Shown: one piece after another, positions 10,764 through 18,562 of the stretch
Layout: the number at the start of each line of letters is the position of its first letter
How positions within the stretch are numbered: the stretch's first letter is position 1
Assembly (NCBI GenBank): GCA_013203045.1
Contig: JABMQN010000136.1
Coordinates: 1-36,294 of the forward strand
Reading direction: 5' to 3'
Length of the DNA stretch: 36,294 nt
DNA from: Chloroflexota bacterium
Lineage (GTDB): Bacteria > Chloroflexota > Dehalococcoidia > SZUA-161 > SpSt-899
The notes under the pieces: generated by a model
What the model was told of the DNA's origin: nothing
Databases searched by the model: none
The model's input: the letters and a program-made list of their open reading frames with translations, nothing else
Translations under genes and position numbers: made by a program

Positions 10764-11954
10764 CTAATTCTGTGCCAGCCAGTCACAATAGTAACACCGT
10801 AACAGTTTGGGTGAGCCGGGGACTTTATAAAATTTTGGGGTGGAGTACTGTTCTTTGTTGGTAATGCAACGTTCGTTAATACACCTGAGATTGGAGGTAT
10901 CTTTGGCTATCTTTACGGTCGCTTCATGTGTAGTCAGTGCTTTCTTGGGTTCTGCTACCCCGAGCAGCAGAGCTATCAAAGCCATCCTTACCGGAATTCC
11001 GTATCCGGCTTGCCTGAAGTAAGCTGCTCGCTTGTCCTGATCAACCTCATAAGCCAACTCATTAATGCGAGGCAAGGGGTGCATGATTACAGCATCGTCT
11101 CTGGATTTAGCCAGCAATTGCTTGTTAATTCGATAGCTTTCTTCACCGGCGACAGAGCTTTCCTGAGTATCGAATCGTTCCCTTTGTAGTCTGGTGAAAT
11201 ACAGCACGTCAAGGCTCTCCAACAGAAAGCTCATGAATCCTTCCTGATGAGTTTTACCTGTTTTCGGTTGATGTACTAGTAACGAGCCATCATCGGCGAT
11301 TTCTTCCAGTGAGCTATACTCCGTGATTTTACATTTGTAATTGTTTAGAATATCGCGAATGTGATCCGGCAACTCAAAACCGGGAGGGGCGATACACGTA
11401 ATTTCAGCTTTAAATCTGGCAAGCGCAACAGCTAGAGAATGCACTGTCCGGCCGTGGCGCAGATCGCCACATAGAGCTACGTTTTTCCCTTCTATCCCGC
11501 CCTTCTCTTTTAGTATGGTGTAAAGGTCAAGCAGGGTTTGAGTGGGATGCTCGTGGGCTCCATCTCCTCCACTAATAATGGGAACGGATGAATGTTCAGC
11601 AGCCAGCCTGGTGGAGCCGTCAAGCGGGTGGCGCATGACGATTACGTCAGCATATTTCTCCAGGGTCCGCACGGTATCAGCAATAGTTTCACCTTTGGCA
11701 ACTGAAGAGGTTACCTGCGCCTCTGCGTGGCTCACTACGGTACCACCCAGTCTGTGCATAGCTGTCTCAAATGAGCTACGTGTGCGAGTGCTAGGTTCGT
11801 AAAAAATGGTGTACAATTCCTTTCCCTGGCATAGATCGAGACGTTTCTTTGCCTCAAGGGCGGAATCCATCTCTTGAGCAAGATCGAGCACTGCCTCGAT
11901 TTCCTCGTTGGAGAAATCGTTAATCGAGATCAGATGCCGGCCAGTAAACGTCAT
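10764..11954 (-). CDS. pyrB: Aspartate carbamoyltransferase with C-terminal PyrI-like zinc tail
   Basis: Catalyses carbamoyl phosphate plus aspartate to carbamoyl aspartate, the first committed pyrimidine step. The 396-residue product starts at ATG 11954, with GAGGAGGT 8 nt upstream. Carbamoyl-phosphate residues are in STRTRSSFE (55-63), HPTQTLLDLYT (136-146) and DLRHGRTVHSL; the aspartate-binding HPLPRINEL is at 292-300. The catalytic fold ends near residue 335, where most PyrB chains stop. The extra 60 residues carry Cys358-x4-Cys363-x23-Cys387-x2-Cys390, the same spacing as the structural zinc site of E. coli PyrI (109, 114, 138, 141), with PyrI-like words CINERCI and LRCYYC. The nucleotide-binding domain of PyrI is absent. 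It lies 13 bp after pyrR in the PyrR-controlled operon. Confidence 0.95.
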   Translation of the reverse strand: MTFTGRHLISINDFSNEEIEAVLDLAQEMDSALEAKKRLDLCQGKELYTIFYEPSTRTRSSFETAMHRLGGTVVSHAEAQVTSSVAKGETIADTVRTLEKYADVIVMRHPLDGSTRLAAEHSSVPIISGGDGAHEHPTQTLLDLYTILKEKGGIEGKNVALCGDLRHGRTVHSLAVALARFKAEITCIAPPGFELPDHIRDILNNYKCKITEYSSLEEIADDGSLLVHQPKTGKTHQEGFMSFLLESLDVLYFTRLQRERFDTQESSVAGEESYRINKQLLAKSRDDAVIMHPLPRINELAYEVDQDKRAAYFRQAGYGIPVRMALIALLLGVAEPKKALTTHEATVKIAKDTSNLRCINERCITNKEQYSTPKFYKVPGSPKLLRCYYCDWLAQN

Positions 11955-11967
11955 TTCATCCACCTCC

Positions 11968-12516
11968 TCAGGCTGTTGATGAGTTATCTTTAATAATTGC
12001 AACTTCATCCTTGCCATCGACTTCTTTTAATCTCACCTGAATCCTTTCATGCAGGGAAGATGGTATATTCTTGCCCACGAAGTCAGCTTTTATGGGCATT
12101 TCACGATGTCCGCGATCGATTAGCACTGCAAGCTGAATAGATTTGGGTCGGCCCCAGTCGATGAGGGCATCAATGGCAGCACGCGCACTTCTTCCGGTGA
12201 AGAGGACATCATCTACCAGGACCACTCTTTTATCAGCAATCATGGTGGGAATATCGCTAGGCTCTATAGTGAGGTCTTTTGGCAGTGAATCCAGATCATC
12301 CCGGTAAAGGGTAAAATCCAAGACTCCAACCGGTATTTCTTTACCTTCTATGCCAGCGATCTCGGAGGCAATGCGTTGCGCCAGGGGGAATCCGCGAGTA
12401 CGTACGCCGATGAGGATCAAAGAATCCAATTGATCGCCATTTTCGATGATCTCGTGTGCAATACGTGTCAGCGTTCGGCTGATGTCTATTTCTGAGAGGA
12501 TTATACTCTCAGCCAT
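11968..12516 (-). CDS. pyrR: PyrR: pyr operon attenuation protein / uracil phosphoribosyltransferase
   Basis: A 182-residue RNA-binding regulator with the type I phosphoribosyltransferase fold. The PRPP loop [10 protein letters not shown] is at 101-110, [12 protein letters not shown] at 35-46 and the family sequence [12 protein letters not shown] at 64-75. With UMP bound it stabilises the binding loop in pyr leader RNA and promotes termination; many members also make UMP from uracil. The ATG at 12516 abuts a run of seven U in the leader, so AAGAGG of the terminator stem is the only candidate ribosome site (7 nt away). That implies direct autoregulation. It is first in the operon pyrR-pyrB-arsA-like. 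Confidence 0.96.
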
Positions 12517-13488: not shown

Positions 13489-14103
13489 CTACTTTGAGTT
13501 CGTATTGAGTTTCAGGAAATTACTGAGCAGTTTCAACCCTGTTTCACCACTCTTCTCGGGATGGAACTGGGTTGCTACCATATTGTCTTTAATGATCATA
13601 CTGCAAAAATTCACTCCGTAGTCTGTCTCGCCGGCAACTACAGATTTATCAGCAGGATCAACATAGTAACTATGTACGAAATAGAAATTGCTCATATCCG
13701 GTATCCCCTCGAAAATGGGATGTGATATCTTTTGCTTAAGCTGATTCCAGCCCATCTCGGGCACCTTGAGGTTTGGCGGTAGTAACCTGACTATCCCTGG
13801 GATCAAATTAAAGCATTCATACCCGCCACTTTCCTCGGTAGAGGTAAGTAACACCTGAAGTCCCAGGCAAATCCCGAAGAATGGTTTGGCTTCTTTGATC
13901 ACTCGCTTTATTGGTTCTACCAATTCAAGTTTTTGCAGACTGTCCATTGTGTCTCCGGCAGCGCCGACGCCGGGGAGGATCACTATATCGGCTTCCAATA
14001 CTTTATTGGGATCACTGGTGATCTCTACTTGATAACCCAATTTGGTAATGGCTTTGGCCACACTCCGCAGGTTTCCAGCACCATAATCTATAATAGCTAT
14101 CAT
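13489..14103 (-). CDS. hisH: Imidazole glycerol phosphate synthase, glutaminase subunit HisH
   Basis: Class I glutamine amidotransferase that supplies ammonia to HisF. The 204-residue chain has the nucleophile Cys79 in FFGICLGLQ, the oxyanion strand PGVGAAGD (44-51), and His and Glu in TQFHPEKSG near residue 183. The start [15 protein letters not shown] is typical of the family. It is the first gene of the hisH-hisF pair. A possible extended -10 element (TGCTACAAT on the minus strand) lies at 14151-14159. Confidence 0.97.
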
Positions 14104-14329: not shown

Positions 14330-14788
14330 ATGAAAACCAAAGCGGTAATATTTGCATTATGTGCTACTATTCTCATGATCGGTATTGCGAGTTGTGATCG
14401 AACTAGTGGGGATAGTGTTTCCGCACTGACGTGGCTACGTGATTGGGACGAAGCAAAAATGCAGGCTCAAGAACAAGACAAACCAATAATGATAAACTGC
14501 TACACGGATGTGTGTCCTGCATGTAGGGAACTGGATAGCAAAACTTTTACTGATATTGAATTGGGAGCATTCTTGAGCGATAATTTTGTCAATTTGAAAA
14601 GCAATGCGAACGACAGCGGCTTATGCACAAACTATGGTGTCTTCGGAGTTCCGACAACCGTTTTCACTGAACCTGATGGAGAGTACATTGGGGAGATCAG
14701 AGGATACTATCCTCCAAAGCAGTTCTTTATTGGGGTGCAAGAAGCCGTTAATCGCTGGGAAAGCATTGCTGAGTTAGGTAATCAGTAA
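14330..14788 (+). CDS. Thioredoxin-fold lipoprotein (DsbD-gamma/thioredoxin_7-like)
   Basis: A 152-residue extracytoplasmic thiol protein. Starting at ATG 14330 gives a clean lipoprotein signal (MKTKAVIFALCATILMIGIASC, cut before Cys22); the in-frame TTG at 14306 would spoil it. The thioredoxin domain has the active site CPAC at 62-65 (TDVCPACRELD) and the cis-proline loop GVFGVPTTVF. The layout with WDEAKMQAQEQDKPIMI before the active site resembles the C-terminal domain of DsbD and thioredoxin_7 proteins, which pass electrons outside the membrane. An extra Cys57 lies just before CPAC. It is followed after 3 nt by a tiny CxxC membrane protein and then a membrane ferredoxin, which suggests one electron-transfer unit. 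Confidence 0.85.
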   Translation: MKTKAVIFALCATILMIGIASCDRTSGDSVSALTWLRDWDEAKMQAQEQDKPIMINCYTDVCPACRELDSKTFTDIELGAFLSDNFVNLKSNANDSGLCTNYGVFGVPTTVFTEPDGEYIGEIRGYYPPKQFFIGVQEAVNRWESIAELGNQ

Positions 14789-14791
14789 AGC

Positions 14792-14959
14792 ATGTTTAAG
14801 AAAAAGGTGTTCTGCCTCCGTCTCTTTCTGCTGGTAGTATTTTTGGCTTCACTTGGCATTACTGTGTCGTCTCAGTATGACAAAGCGCGCAGTACTGTCA
14901 CCCAACCCTGTTGGGATTGCCTGGGAGTCGAGGTCAAAAAAGGATTCATCTTCGAATGA
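14792..14959 (+). CDS. 55-residue membrane-anchored CWDC protein
   Basis: A short gene between two redox genes: ATG at 14792, 3 nt after the stop of the thioredoxin-fold gene, and TGA at 14957-14959 overlapping the ATG of the membrane ferredoxin. The product starts KKK, then has one hydrophobic helix (residues about 7-26) and a short exposed tail with QPCWDCLGV (Cys40 and Cys43). The tight packing on both sides, the CxxC pair and the membrane helix support a real gene. The family was not recognised. A role as a thiol relay or metal ligand between its two neighbours is inference. Confidence 0.7.
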   Translation: MFKKKVFCLRLFLLVVFLASLGITVSSQYDKARSTVTQPCWDCLGVEVKKGFIFE

Positions 14960-15756
14960 AGCGATTGGGCATTTTTCGGTTGGCTAGCCAGTTCCTGGCA
15001 CTGATAATATTCAATCTGGGATTTACTCATTCGTTAAAAACAGGCGTTCTTTGCCCCGGCTTCTACTGCTACGGTTGTCCCTGGGCTTTATTTGCATGTC
15101 CAATTGGGGTAGTGCAAACATCAAATCCATTTGGTTCAATCCACATTGGATTGTTTTTTTACGCCATTGGATTGCTGGGAATATTTGGGCTGGTCTTGGG
15201 CAGAACCTGGTGTGGGTGGGTCTGCCCTTTCGGTACTGTCCAAGATTTGGTATCGAAGATCAGAAGGAAAAAAGATGTGGTAAGCCTCCCTTCGATTCCA
15301 TGGATGAAATACTTGTCATTGGTTAGTATACTTATTGTAGCGTGGATCACCGCGGAAACACTCTTTTGCAAGGTATGCCCGGCAGGGAGCCTTTTTGGAG
15401 CCATTCCCAACCAGTTTACTTCGTCAGCGGACGAGTTTGATATTGGAACATTTTTCTGGGTGCATCTGATAACACTGGCAGTTTCGCTGGTACTCTTTGT
15501 TTTTATCGGGCGTTTCTGGTGTAGATATTTATGTCCCCTTGGAGCAATCTACGGCATGTTCAACAGGATTAGTATCGTGAAGGTGAAATTGGACTGGGAT
15601 AAATGCACTAATTGCGAACAGTGTCTGGAAGTTTGTCCAACAAATCTTAAAAAGGCTGATGATATCGGCAAATCCTCTGATTGCATCCAGTGCGGGAAAT
15701 GTGTTGAGGCCTGTCCTACTGAGGCTATCAGAATAGTCGCCTCAGTCCACAGTTAG
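14956..15756 (+). CDS. NapH-like membrane polyferredoxin
   Basis: A 266-residue membrane iron-sulfur protein. The ATG at 14956 overlaps the upstream stop (ATGA), preferred over the distant TTG at 14911. It has four to five hydrophobic helices, with paired cysteine motifs CGWVCPFG (after helix 2) and CRYLCPLGA (after helix 4) as in NapH, RdxA and NosR C-terminal regions. An additional N-terminal cluster CPGFYCYGCPWALFACP (about 33-50) is not part of ordinary NapH. Two 4Fe-4S ferredoxin motifs close the protein (CTNCEQCLEVCP and CIQCGKCVEACP). Known members move electrons between quinol or ferredoxin and periplasmic partners; here the partner is probably the thioredoxin-fold lipoprotein. Confidence 0.88.
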   Translation: MKRLGIFRLASQFLALIIFNLGFTHSLKTGVLCPGFYCYGCPWALFACPIGVVQTSNPFGSIHIGLFFYAIGLLGIFGLVLGRTWCGWVCPFGTVQDLVSKIRRKKDVVSLPSIPWMKYLSLVSILIVAWITAETLFCKVCPAGSLFGAIPNQFTSSADEFDIGTFFWVHLITLAVSLVLFVFIGRFWCRYLCPLGAIYGMFNRISIVKVKLDWDKCTNCEQCLEVCPTNLKKADDIGKSSDCIQCGKCVEACPTEAIRIVASVHS

Positions 15757-15928: not shown

Positions 15929-17311
15929 TTGAAAGTAACATCAGAAAGGCTCGAAGGTTGCCTTGTTGCCCTAACGGTGGAAATCGAGCCAGAGGAAATG
16001 GAAAAAGCTCAAGAGGGAGCATATCGGCGGCTGATAAAAAAAGTCGATGTTCCCGGATTCCGAAAGGGCAAAGCCCCACGTGCATTACTGGAACTCCATG
16101 TAGGGAAAATTTCTTTCGATGCTGAAGCATTAGATCGATTGGTTCCGGAACTCTATGATCAAGCGATTGAACAAGAGAAGGTTGAAGCTATTGGGCAACC
16201 TGATTTGGAGATGACTCAGGCTGATCCACCGATATTCAAAGCAACTGTTCCGGTACGCCCTGAAGTAGAGTTGGGTGACTATCATTCCATCAGGGTAACA
16301 AAAGATAAGGTAGAGATCACTGATGAGAATGTTGAACAGGGTATAGAGAACCTGCGCCAAATGCAAGCCATCTACGAGCCTGTCGAGCGTGAAGCGGACA
16401 TTAATGATATGGTGACCATAGATGCCGAGGGCATCGTTGAAGAAAAGACCGTCCTTGATTCAAAGGGTGGCCAGTACAGGATATCCGAGAATTCTGTTGT
16501 ACCTGTGGCCAGATTTGCGGAGCAACTACAGGGGATGAAAGCTGGGGACCAGAAGGAATTCACGTTGCCCTTCCCTGAAGATCATGAGAGTGAAGAATTG
16601 GCTGGGAAGGACTGTCTGTTCAAAGTATCGATGTCTGACGTTAAAGAAGAGAAATTGCCTGAAGTGGATGATGAGTTCGCCAAAAGCATGGGGCAGGGAA
16701 TCGAAACCGTGGAGCAACTCAAGGAAAGACTTCGAGAGAACATTACAACTGCTGCAGAACGGGATTCACGAGCCAAGCTGGAGAACGAAGTAATCGATGC
16801 AGTGGCGGCCATGTCAAAGGTGGAGTTTCCCGCTATATTCACAGAACAGGAAATCGATCGTCTTGGGAATGAGCAGATGATGAGGCTTGGTGGAATACAG
16901 GTGCAGGATTTTCTCAAGTACCGAGGGATTACCGAAGAAGATTTTCGAAACGAACTGAGACCAGCAGCCGAAAAAAGGGTTATGAGCTCGTTAATTTTAA
17001 ATAAAGTCCACGATGCTGAAAACGTTGAGGTCAGCGGTGCTGAAATTGATTCAGAGATTGAAAAAATTGTAGAAGATGCAGGAGAAGAACAGGCTGAGGC
17101 AGTAAAGAAAATGTTTGAGACGGCAGACGCTCGAGAATCAATAAGTGGGCGTCTTCTAACAGAGAAGACAATTAACTTATTGATTGACATTGCTACTACA
17201 GATGAGGCTGCACCTGTAGAAGAGGCAGCTCTGGAGCAGGAAGTTGCTGAGGAAGTAACTCAGGAAGAGGATCAAAGTGAGCAATCCCCGAATGAGGAGG
17301 ATAGCGAATGA
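15929..17311 (+). CDS. tig: Trigger factor (ribosome-associated chaperone, PPIase)
   Basis: Binds the ribosome exit tunnel and folds nascent chains. Start TTG at 15929, placed by AGGAGG 6 nt upstream. The N-terminal ribosome-binding loop [13 protein letters not shown] (about 43-55) is the family signature. The middle FKBP-like region (about 155-240) and the helical C-terminal arms follow. At 460 residues it is slightly long because of an acidic Glu-rich tail of about 45 residues. Its stop overlaps the clpP1 start (ATGA), a common genomic pairing of trigger factor and Clp protease. Confidence 0.96.
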
Positions 17312-17928
17312 TTGTAAGACCACAAAACCTTATCCCAATGGTAGTGGAGACTAGCAGCAAGGGGGAGCGTGCCTTTGATATATTCTCGCTTCTCTTGAAA
17401 GAACGGATCATTTTTCTTGGTTCGCCCATCGATGATCACATAGCAAATTTGATCGTGGCTCAACTTCTATATCTCGAACGGGAAGATCCTGATAAAGATA
17501 TCAGCATGTATATCCACAGCCCCGGTGGATATGTATCCTCAGGGCTGGCAATTTATGACACAATGCAGCTTGTCCGATGCGATATTTCCACCATATGCGT
17601 TGGCATGACTGCCAGCTTGGCTGCAATCATTCTTTGTGCCGGTGCCAAAGGTAAGCGCTATTCCTTGCCGCATGCAAAGGTCATGATGCACCAGCCCACC
17701 GGTGGTGTTGGAGGACAAGCCTCGGATATCAAGATTCAGGCCGAAGAAATTATAAAGACCAAGACCATGCTCAATGAGATAATTGCCAAGCACAGCGGTA
17801 AGAGCGTTGAATTTGTTAAGCAGGAAACTGAGCGTGACCGATATCTGAGCGCAGAAGAGGCCAAGGAATGGGGTCTTATCGATGAAATTTTAAGCAGCGA
17901 AGTTGCAGAAGTTAAAGAGGCAGAGTAG
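17308..17928 (+). CDS. clpP: ATP-dependent Clp protease proteolytic subunit, first copy
   Basis: Serine protease of the two-ring ClpP barrel that degrades proteins fed by a Clp ATPase. The catalytic triad is visible: Ser103 (GMTASLAA), His128 (MMHQPTGG) and Asp177 (TERDRYLS). The usual GMAASM around Ser is changed to GMTASL. The 206-residue chain starts within the tig stop codon (ATGA overlap), so translation is probably coupled. A second ClpP follows 19 bp downstream. No clpX or clpC gene is in the window. Confidence 0.96.
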
Positions 17929-17947
17929 CGATAGGGAGGAATCCAAG

Positions 17948-18562
17948 ATGGATAGAGTAGATATATCTGATTTGCAGCCTGTAGTGATAGAGAGTACCGA
18001 TGTAGGAGTATTGGGCTATAGCATTTACTCACGATTACTTAAAGATCGAATTATCTTTCTCGGGGGCGGTGTTGATGATGAAAAGGCAAACTCCATTGTT
18101 GCGCAGATGCTGTTTCTAAGCAATGAAGATCCCAAGGCGGATATCCAGTTTTATATCAATTCCCCCGGTGGATCCGTATCGGCTGGTCTGGCGATATATG
18201 ATACTATGCAGTCTGTAAACTGTGATGTAAGCACTTGTTGTGTTGGGATGGCCGCGAGCATGGGAGCTGTACTGCTGCTGGGTGGCACCAAAGGCAAGCG
18301 CTATTTACTTCCTAATTCCAGGGTGTTACTGCATCAGCCTTTGATGGGAACAATAACTGGTCCGGCAACTGATCTGGAAATTCAAGCGGAAGAGATGCTG
18401 CGAATTCGTGATCAGCTATACAAGATTATCAGTAATCATACCGGCCAAAACATGGAACAAGTAGAGAAGGATTGTGATCGTGACTACTGGATGGATGCCG
18501 GGCAGTCACTTAAATACGGTATTGTTGACAGTATCCTGGAAAAACTACCTAGTAGCAGTTAG
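17948..18562 (+). CDS. clpP: ATP-dependent Clp protease proteolytic subunit, second copy
   Basis: A second ClpP of 204 residues, starting at ATG 17948 with GGGAGGA 7 nt upstream; the open frame before it lacks support. The triad is Ser104 (GMAASMGA), His129 (LLHQPLMG) and Asp179 (CDRDYWMD). It differs clearly from ClpP1 over most of the chain, so the pair looks like ancient paralogues rather than a recent duplication. In Mycobacterium and Listeria such pairs form mixed rings with distinct ATPase-docking and cleavage faces; that may apply here but cannot be read from sequence. Confidence 0.95.
   Translation: MDRVDISDLQPVVIESTDVGVLGYSIYSRLLKDRIIFLGGGVDDEKANSIVAQMLFLSNEDPKADIQFYINSPGGSVSAGLAIYDTMQSVNCDVSTCCVGMAASMGAVLLLGGTKGKRYLLPNSRVLLHQPLMGTITGPATDLEIQAEEMLRIRDQLYKIISNHTGQNMEQVEKDCDRDYWMDAGQSLKYGIVDSILEKLPSSS

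Follow-up and report, generated by a model that had tools for sequence, protein, structure and literature searches.

A conserved thioredoxin, small CxxC protein and NapH-like polyferredoxin operon as a candidate transmembrane thiol-reducing relay

Introduction

What do a thioredoxin-fold lipoprotein, a very small single-helix protein and a membrane polyferredoxin do together when their genes are packed into one operon? The question is raised by a 36,294-nucleotide stretch of DNA from a Chloroflexota bacterium (contig JABMQN010000136.1, referred to here as the window), for which a preliminary description had proposed an electron route from ferredoxin to extracytoplasmic thiols as an alternative to DsbD/CcdA. 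In DsbD/CcdA the transfer is carried out by cysteine pairs inside one membrane protein. From the comparisons described below, we consider the operon likely to encode a transmembrane thiol-reducing relay that couples an Fe-S wire to a dedicated dithiol adaptor.

Results

Layout of the operon

The three genes lie on the + strand exactly where they had first been placed. Gene A (14330..14788) encodes a thioredoxin-fold lipoprotein of 152 aa with a CPAC motif and the lipobox IASC. After a gap of 3 nt, gene B (14792..14959) encodes a 55-aa protein with one hydrophobic segment and the motif QPCWDC, the sequence PCWDCLG following the helix. Gene C (14956..15756), which overlaps B in the tetranucleotide ATGA, encodes a NapH-like membrane polyferredoxin of 266 aa with CPGFYCYGCPW near its N-terminus and a ferredoxin domain at its C-terminus. 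The operon is flanked by hisH (13489-14103, - strand), which is transcribed away from it, and on the other side by a trigger-factor gene (from 15929), both named from a reading of their translations, and promoter and terminator calls around the operon returned nothing of note. Elsewhere in the window, two tandem ClpP-like genes (17308-18562), the second frame overlapping the first, lie directly 3' of the trigger-factor gene, and an aspartate carbamoyltransferase-like protein (10764-12017) carries a four-Cys zinc-ribbon-like C-terminal tail (CINERC...CYYC) that resembles a PyrI domain fused to PyrB.

The small protein B and its family

No Pfam or NCBIfam model matches the product of B, for which PHROGs gives a single insignificant hit (0.049). 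Nonetheless B is a real gene, as follows from three lines of evidence. Firstly, when a profile built from 25 small CxxC partners of other genomes, with the window's B left out, is run against the complete six-frame set of reading frames in the window, the frame at 14789-14956 is the only significant match (E 2.7e-4; next-best frame 0.78). Secondly, a frame of 47-55 aa comprising a helix and then C-x2-C-LG stands at the same position in three genomes of the same order, with counterparts at this operon position in further Chloroflexota; the preliminary description would have given up the small gene had the frame been absent or broken in orthologous loci. Finally, near pairs within the family show dN against dS of 0.14 vs 1.3, 0.17 vs 1.85, 0.05 vs 0.25 and 0.08 vs 0.42, ratios of ~0.1-0.2 that indicate purifying selection.

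The family alignment contains an invariant C-x2-C-[LIV] near the C-terminus, and B shares 24-40% identity with its relatives. These end no more than a few residues after the CxxC-L/I-G motif, whereas the window's B alone continues after CLGV with a tail, EVKKGFIFE, that overlaps C. The small protein had been called unlisted, which holds for B itself and not for the wider family, part of which is listed as the CD1871A family CXXC motif-containing protein (NF040920). Neither B nor its relatives in loci L016, L018 and L019 give any match to this model (curated cut-off 32 bits), although B has the general features of the family, namely a single helix, a CxxC-[LIV]-G after it and a 4Fe-4S membrane protein as neighbor. 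A Chloroflexota relative (genome G421) reaches 31.3 bits, just under the cut-off; it is the near-cut-off match found in 1 of 400 Chloroflexota genomes, and the gene order there is small protein, C, ResA-like thioredoxin. Position, shape and this intermediate sequence join the two families, and B is a divergent relative of CD1871A, sharing its size, single helix, C-terminal CxxC-[LIV]-G and closeness to a thioredoxin and to a NapH-like 4Fe-4S protein, and differing in the missing model match, the PCWDC sequence and the C-terminal tail. In two C. difficile papers the names CD1871/CD18710 denote a gene for an ABC transporter permease and a gene of a conjugative transposon, neither of which belongs to the CD1871A family.

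The three genes recur together

A search of 84,980 genomes that used aligned C sequences as the query yielded 60 NapH-like loci. Since these were fetched by patterns from C, one of them covering part of its N-terminal motif, they are a non-random sample of NapH proteins, within which the following contrast stands. The N-terminal motif C-x2-CP-x5-CP-x-G is present in 13 of the 60 loci, and a small partner lies beside C in 12 of these 13 as against 0/47 without the motif (Fisher p 9e-12), the latter count being the same with a profile-free pattern. At the lone motif locus that has no partner (L026) the contig ends inside C. Among the 12 partnered loci, three archaea carry the small partner as a fusion. 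The order is A-B-C in the Chloroflexota loci L016-L021 and L027, and B-C-thioredoxin in L022, from a Bathyarchaeota-type archaeon, and in L015 (G421).

In a Bacillota-related phylum, sampled as 199 genomes around Candidatus Frackibacter, NF040920 finds matches in 27 genomes, 23 of them above its cut-off. At these 27 loci C is adjacent in 26, and a thioredoxin lies within the ~3 kb fetched in 19. The same small protein is also seen in L096, where C starts ~250 nt downstream, and in L095, where the fetched stretch holds no C. Lack of co-occurrence had been named as the result that would break the idea of a system; instead the set recurs, the small partner occurring together with the N-terminal motif of C, and these loci support A, B and C as a conserved unit in several bacterial and archaeal phyla. 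In four Chloroflexota loci (L017, L020, L021, L027) a HoxU/NuoG-like iron-sulfur protein, which might be a cytoplasmic electron donor, is encoded just upstream of the thioredoxin.

Polyferredoxin C carries four additional cysteines

C matches Fer4_5 at 7.9e-24 and the NapH/MauN model TIGR02163 with 105.8 bits (E 2.6e-30) against a cut-off of 213; by sequence it is homologous to NapH/MauN and not a member of TIGR02163. With NapH/MauN it shares four helices, two inner CxxxCP motifs (C has two Fer4_5 regions) and a C-terminal 8-Cys ferredoxin domain of the 2x[4Fe-4S] type. It differs in four additional outer cysteines, in its CxxC small partner and in that no nitrate reductase genes were seen nearby. 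Three of the four cysteines (C38, C41 and C48) lie in CYGCPWALFAC (codons 38-48; 15067..15099, + strand), which is predicted at the outer face and is invariant in the Chloroflexota and archaeal relatives. The proposed fourth outer ligand, C141 (15376..15378, + strand), lies between helices 3 and 4. In an alignment of 68 C proteins C141 is conserved in 8/8 Chloroflexota, 24/24 archaeal and 33/36 other rows, these last being a mixed group that may include distant NapH-like proteins. All four cysteines are present in every Chloroflexota and archaeal row and in nearly all others, the exceptions being confined to the mixed group, and C86, C90, C189 and C193 are present in all 68 rows. In archaea conservation does not extend to C138, which precedes C141 by three residues. 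The other two Fer4_5 loci of the window's genome (contigs C17 and C34) show on inspection neither extra cysteines nor a small partner.

The helices of C are predicted at residues 3-29, 64-89, 115-135 and 163-183 in a low-confidence AlphaFold model, of which the helix count alone is usable (mean pLDDT of 53 for C from 13 rows, and of 40 for the archaeal fusion from 3 rows). Helix order and the positive-inside rule place C38, C41, C48 and C141 at the predicted outer face and C86, C90, C189 and C193 at the predicted inner face. Further cues to topology are the basic N-terminus of B ahead of its helix, the lipoprotein signal on A and the basic loop that joins helices 2 and 3 of C, so that all thiols of A and B and the extra cysteines of C are predicted to fall outside. 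A [4Fe-4S] site usually consists of four conserved cysteines that lie on one face, and C38, C41, C48 and C141 may thus hold an outer-face cluster.

Lipoprotein A is related to the C-terminal domain of DsbD

A scores 46 bits (6e-12) against Thioredoxin_7 (PF13899), above the gathering cut-off of 27 bits, and has both the CxxC and the cis-Pro expected of a member. The active-site cysteines are C62 and C65, the cis-Pro is P108 and the lipobox cysteine is C22; C62, C65 and P108 are invariant. The nearest solved relatives are DsbD C-terminal domains (4ip1, 1.7e-9). Two Chloroflexota loci (L020:4217-4828 and L021:4352-4813) encode the set's thioredoxin with a TGA codon in frame exactly where the first active-site Cys belongs (FYTDT-U-PAC and FYTDT-U-PWC), most simply read as a probable selenocysteine. 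A GGC-UGGAY-GCC hairpin-like stretch follows the TGA in both, and neither Rfam nor folding z-scores supported a SECIS element there.

Fusion of the small domain with a thioredoxin-like domain in Thermoplasmatota

Thermoplasmatota genomes carry, in 31 of 194 cases, a protein of ~210 aa whose N-terminal part is the small domain; this protein directly adjoins C in 20/20 cases inspected. The two cysteines of its first motif (C-L-S-C) are invariant, as are the second C-x2-C and a proline that occupies the cis-Pro position. Its second part aligns to the A family weakly and in register (hhalign E 4.7e-4, probability 32%). Such a fusion points to joint action of the small domain and the thioredoxin on one and the same side of the membrane.

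Relation to DsbD/CcdA

The set and DsbD/CcdA (PF02683) have in common their proposed task, the supply of an extracytoplasmic thioredoxin with electrons from across the membrane, with A resembling the C-terminal domain of DsbD. They differ in that no Pfam match to DsbD_TM is found in A, B or C, in place of which the set would have Fe-S clusters and a separate one-helix CxxC protein. Among the Bacillota-related genomes, many of which are split into many contigs, DsbD_TM is found in 9/27 with CD1871A and in 133/172 without it (p 1.1e-5, with shared ancestry still contained in the figure), while the control membrane family PF02690 is found in 19/27 and 134/172, respectively (p 0.46). The Thermoplasmatota show no such depletion with the fusion, the trend there being in the opposite direction (9/31 vs 23/163, p 0.06). 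DsbD_TM occurs in 3 of the 17 set-bearing genomes of Chloroflexota and archaea and is rare in the window's own order (4/18 genomes), so that its absence there says little. The only DsbD_TM protein of the window's genome is encoded beside an ACR3-type arsenite transporter gene (contig C197); here (L107:173-3314) genes for a permease, for small CxxC thioredoxin-like proteins, for the DsbD_TM/CcdA-like protein and for the ACR3-like transporter follow one another, probably as an arsenic cluster.

Given complementarity in one phylum and none in Thermoplasmatota, it is plausible that the set replaces DsbD/CcdA in part of its range, and the proposal of an alternative to DsbD/CcdA is retained in this narrower form and not as a general rule.

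Discussion

In the relay that we favor, a cytoplasmic low-potential donor, putatively ferredoxin or similar, would pass electrons to the two [4Fe-4S] clusters of the C-terminal domain of C, and these to an inner-face cluster held by C86, C90, C189 and C193, as in NapH. NapH relatives may use quinol. From the inner face the electrons would reach an outer-face cluster at C38, C41, C48 and C141, which ordinary NapH does not have, and this cluster would reduce the disulfide of B, whose CxxC lies just outside its single helix. B would in turn pass the electrons to A by thiol-disulfide exchange, and lipoprotein A would reduce extracytoplasmic disulfides. Placed between C and A, B would turn one-electron Fe-S chemistry into two-electron thiol chemistry. 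The genes, their conservation and co-occurrence, the fusion and the conserved cysteines are observed, whereas the clusters, the sequence of transfer steps, the direction in which electrons flow and the substrates are what we infer. The thiol route first proposed for the locus agrees with the predicted topology, with the outer cysteines of C, with the likeness of A to the C-terminal domain of DsbD and with the complementarity to DsbD_TM seen in one phylum.

Each component is related to a known family, that of the small protein being listed, and in the open-access papers searched on CD1871A, on NapH with extracytoplasmic thioredoxins and on alternatives to DsbD neither the set nor the function of the small family is described. 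NapH-like Fe-S proteins have been presented as modular transmembrane electron donors in work on NapH-like and DsbD-like flavinylation systems (PMC8238504). Those systems differ from the set in feeding flavinylated FMN-binding domains, and the passages of PMC8238504 consulted describe no set of NapH, thioredoxin and small CxxC protein.

Other roles can be assigned to the same proteins. B could be an accessory or assembly factor for C, acting in cluster insertion or docking, with A keeping the outer cysteines of C reduced for cluster assembly; the set would then make a single membrane electron-transfer protein with its real partner elsewhere. The linkage of B to C is indeed tighter than that of A to C in the Bacillota-type loci (26/27 vs 19/27), but the fusion partner of the small domain in the archaeal cases is a thioredoxin-like domain and not C, and no further extracytoplasmic redox enzyme consistently accompanies the set, making this role unlikely. 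The relay might instead run in the oxidising direction, A or B oxidising extracytoplasmic thiols while C takes the electrons inward, to an acceptor in the cytoplasm or to a quinone. An Fe-S wire can in principle run either way and the sequences do not fix the direction; even so, the resemblance of A to the reducing C-terminal domain of DsbD, and the tendency of the Bacillota-type holders to be without DsbD/CcdA, the reducing route, make oxidation quite improbable. That B is a spurious short frame, with A and C neighbors by chance, is scarcely credible for all its divergence and want of a library match, given the held-out profile match, the constant position in orthologous operons, the purifying selection on relatives and the 12/13 vs 0/47 association.

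Returning to a reducing relay, the broader proposition is that the set represents a widespread and undescribed type of transmembrane thiol-reducing system beside DsbD/CcdA, found in bacteria and archaea and in some cases using a selenocysteine thioredoxin, in which an outer Fe-S cluster reduces the disulfide of a one-helix protein; for this we see the balance as even. Anaerobes without DsbD/CcdA need electrons for their extracytoplasmic thiols, and the set would supply them. The relay, if true, gives a function to a small-protein family that bears just a locus-tag name, with relatives in Bacillota-type bacteria of which some are perhaps culturable and genetically tractable.
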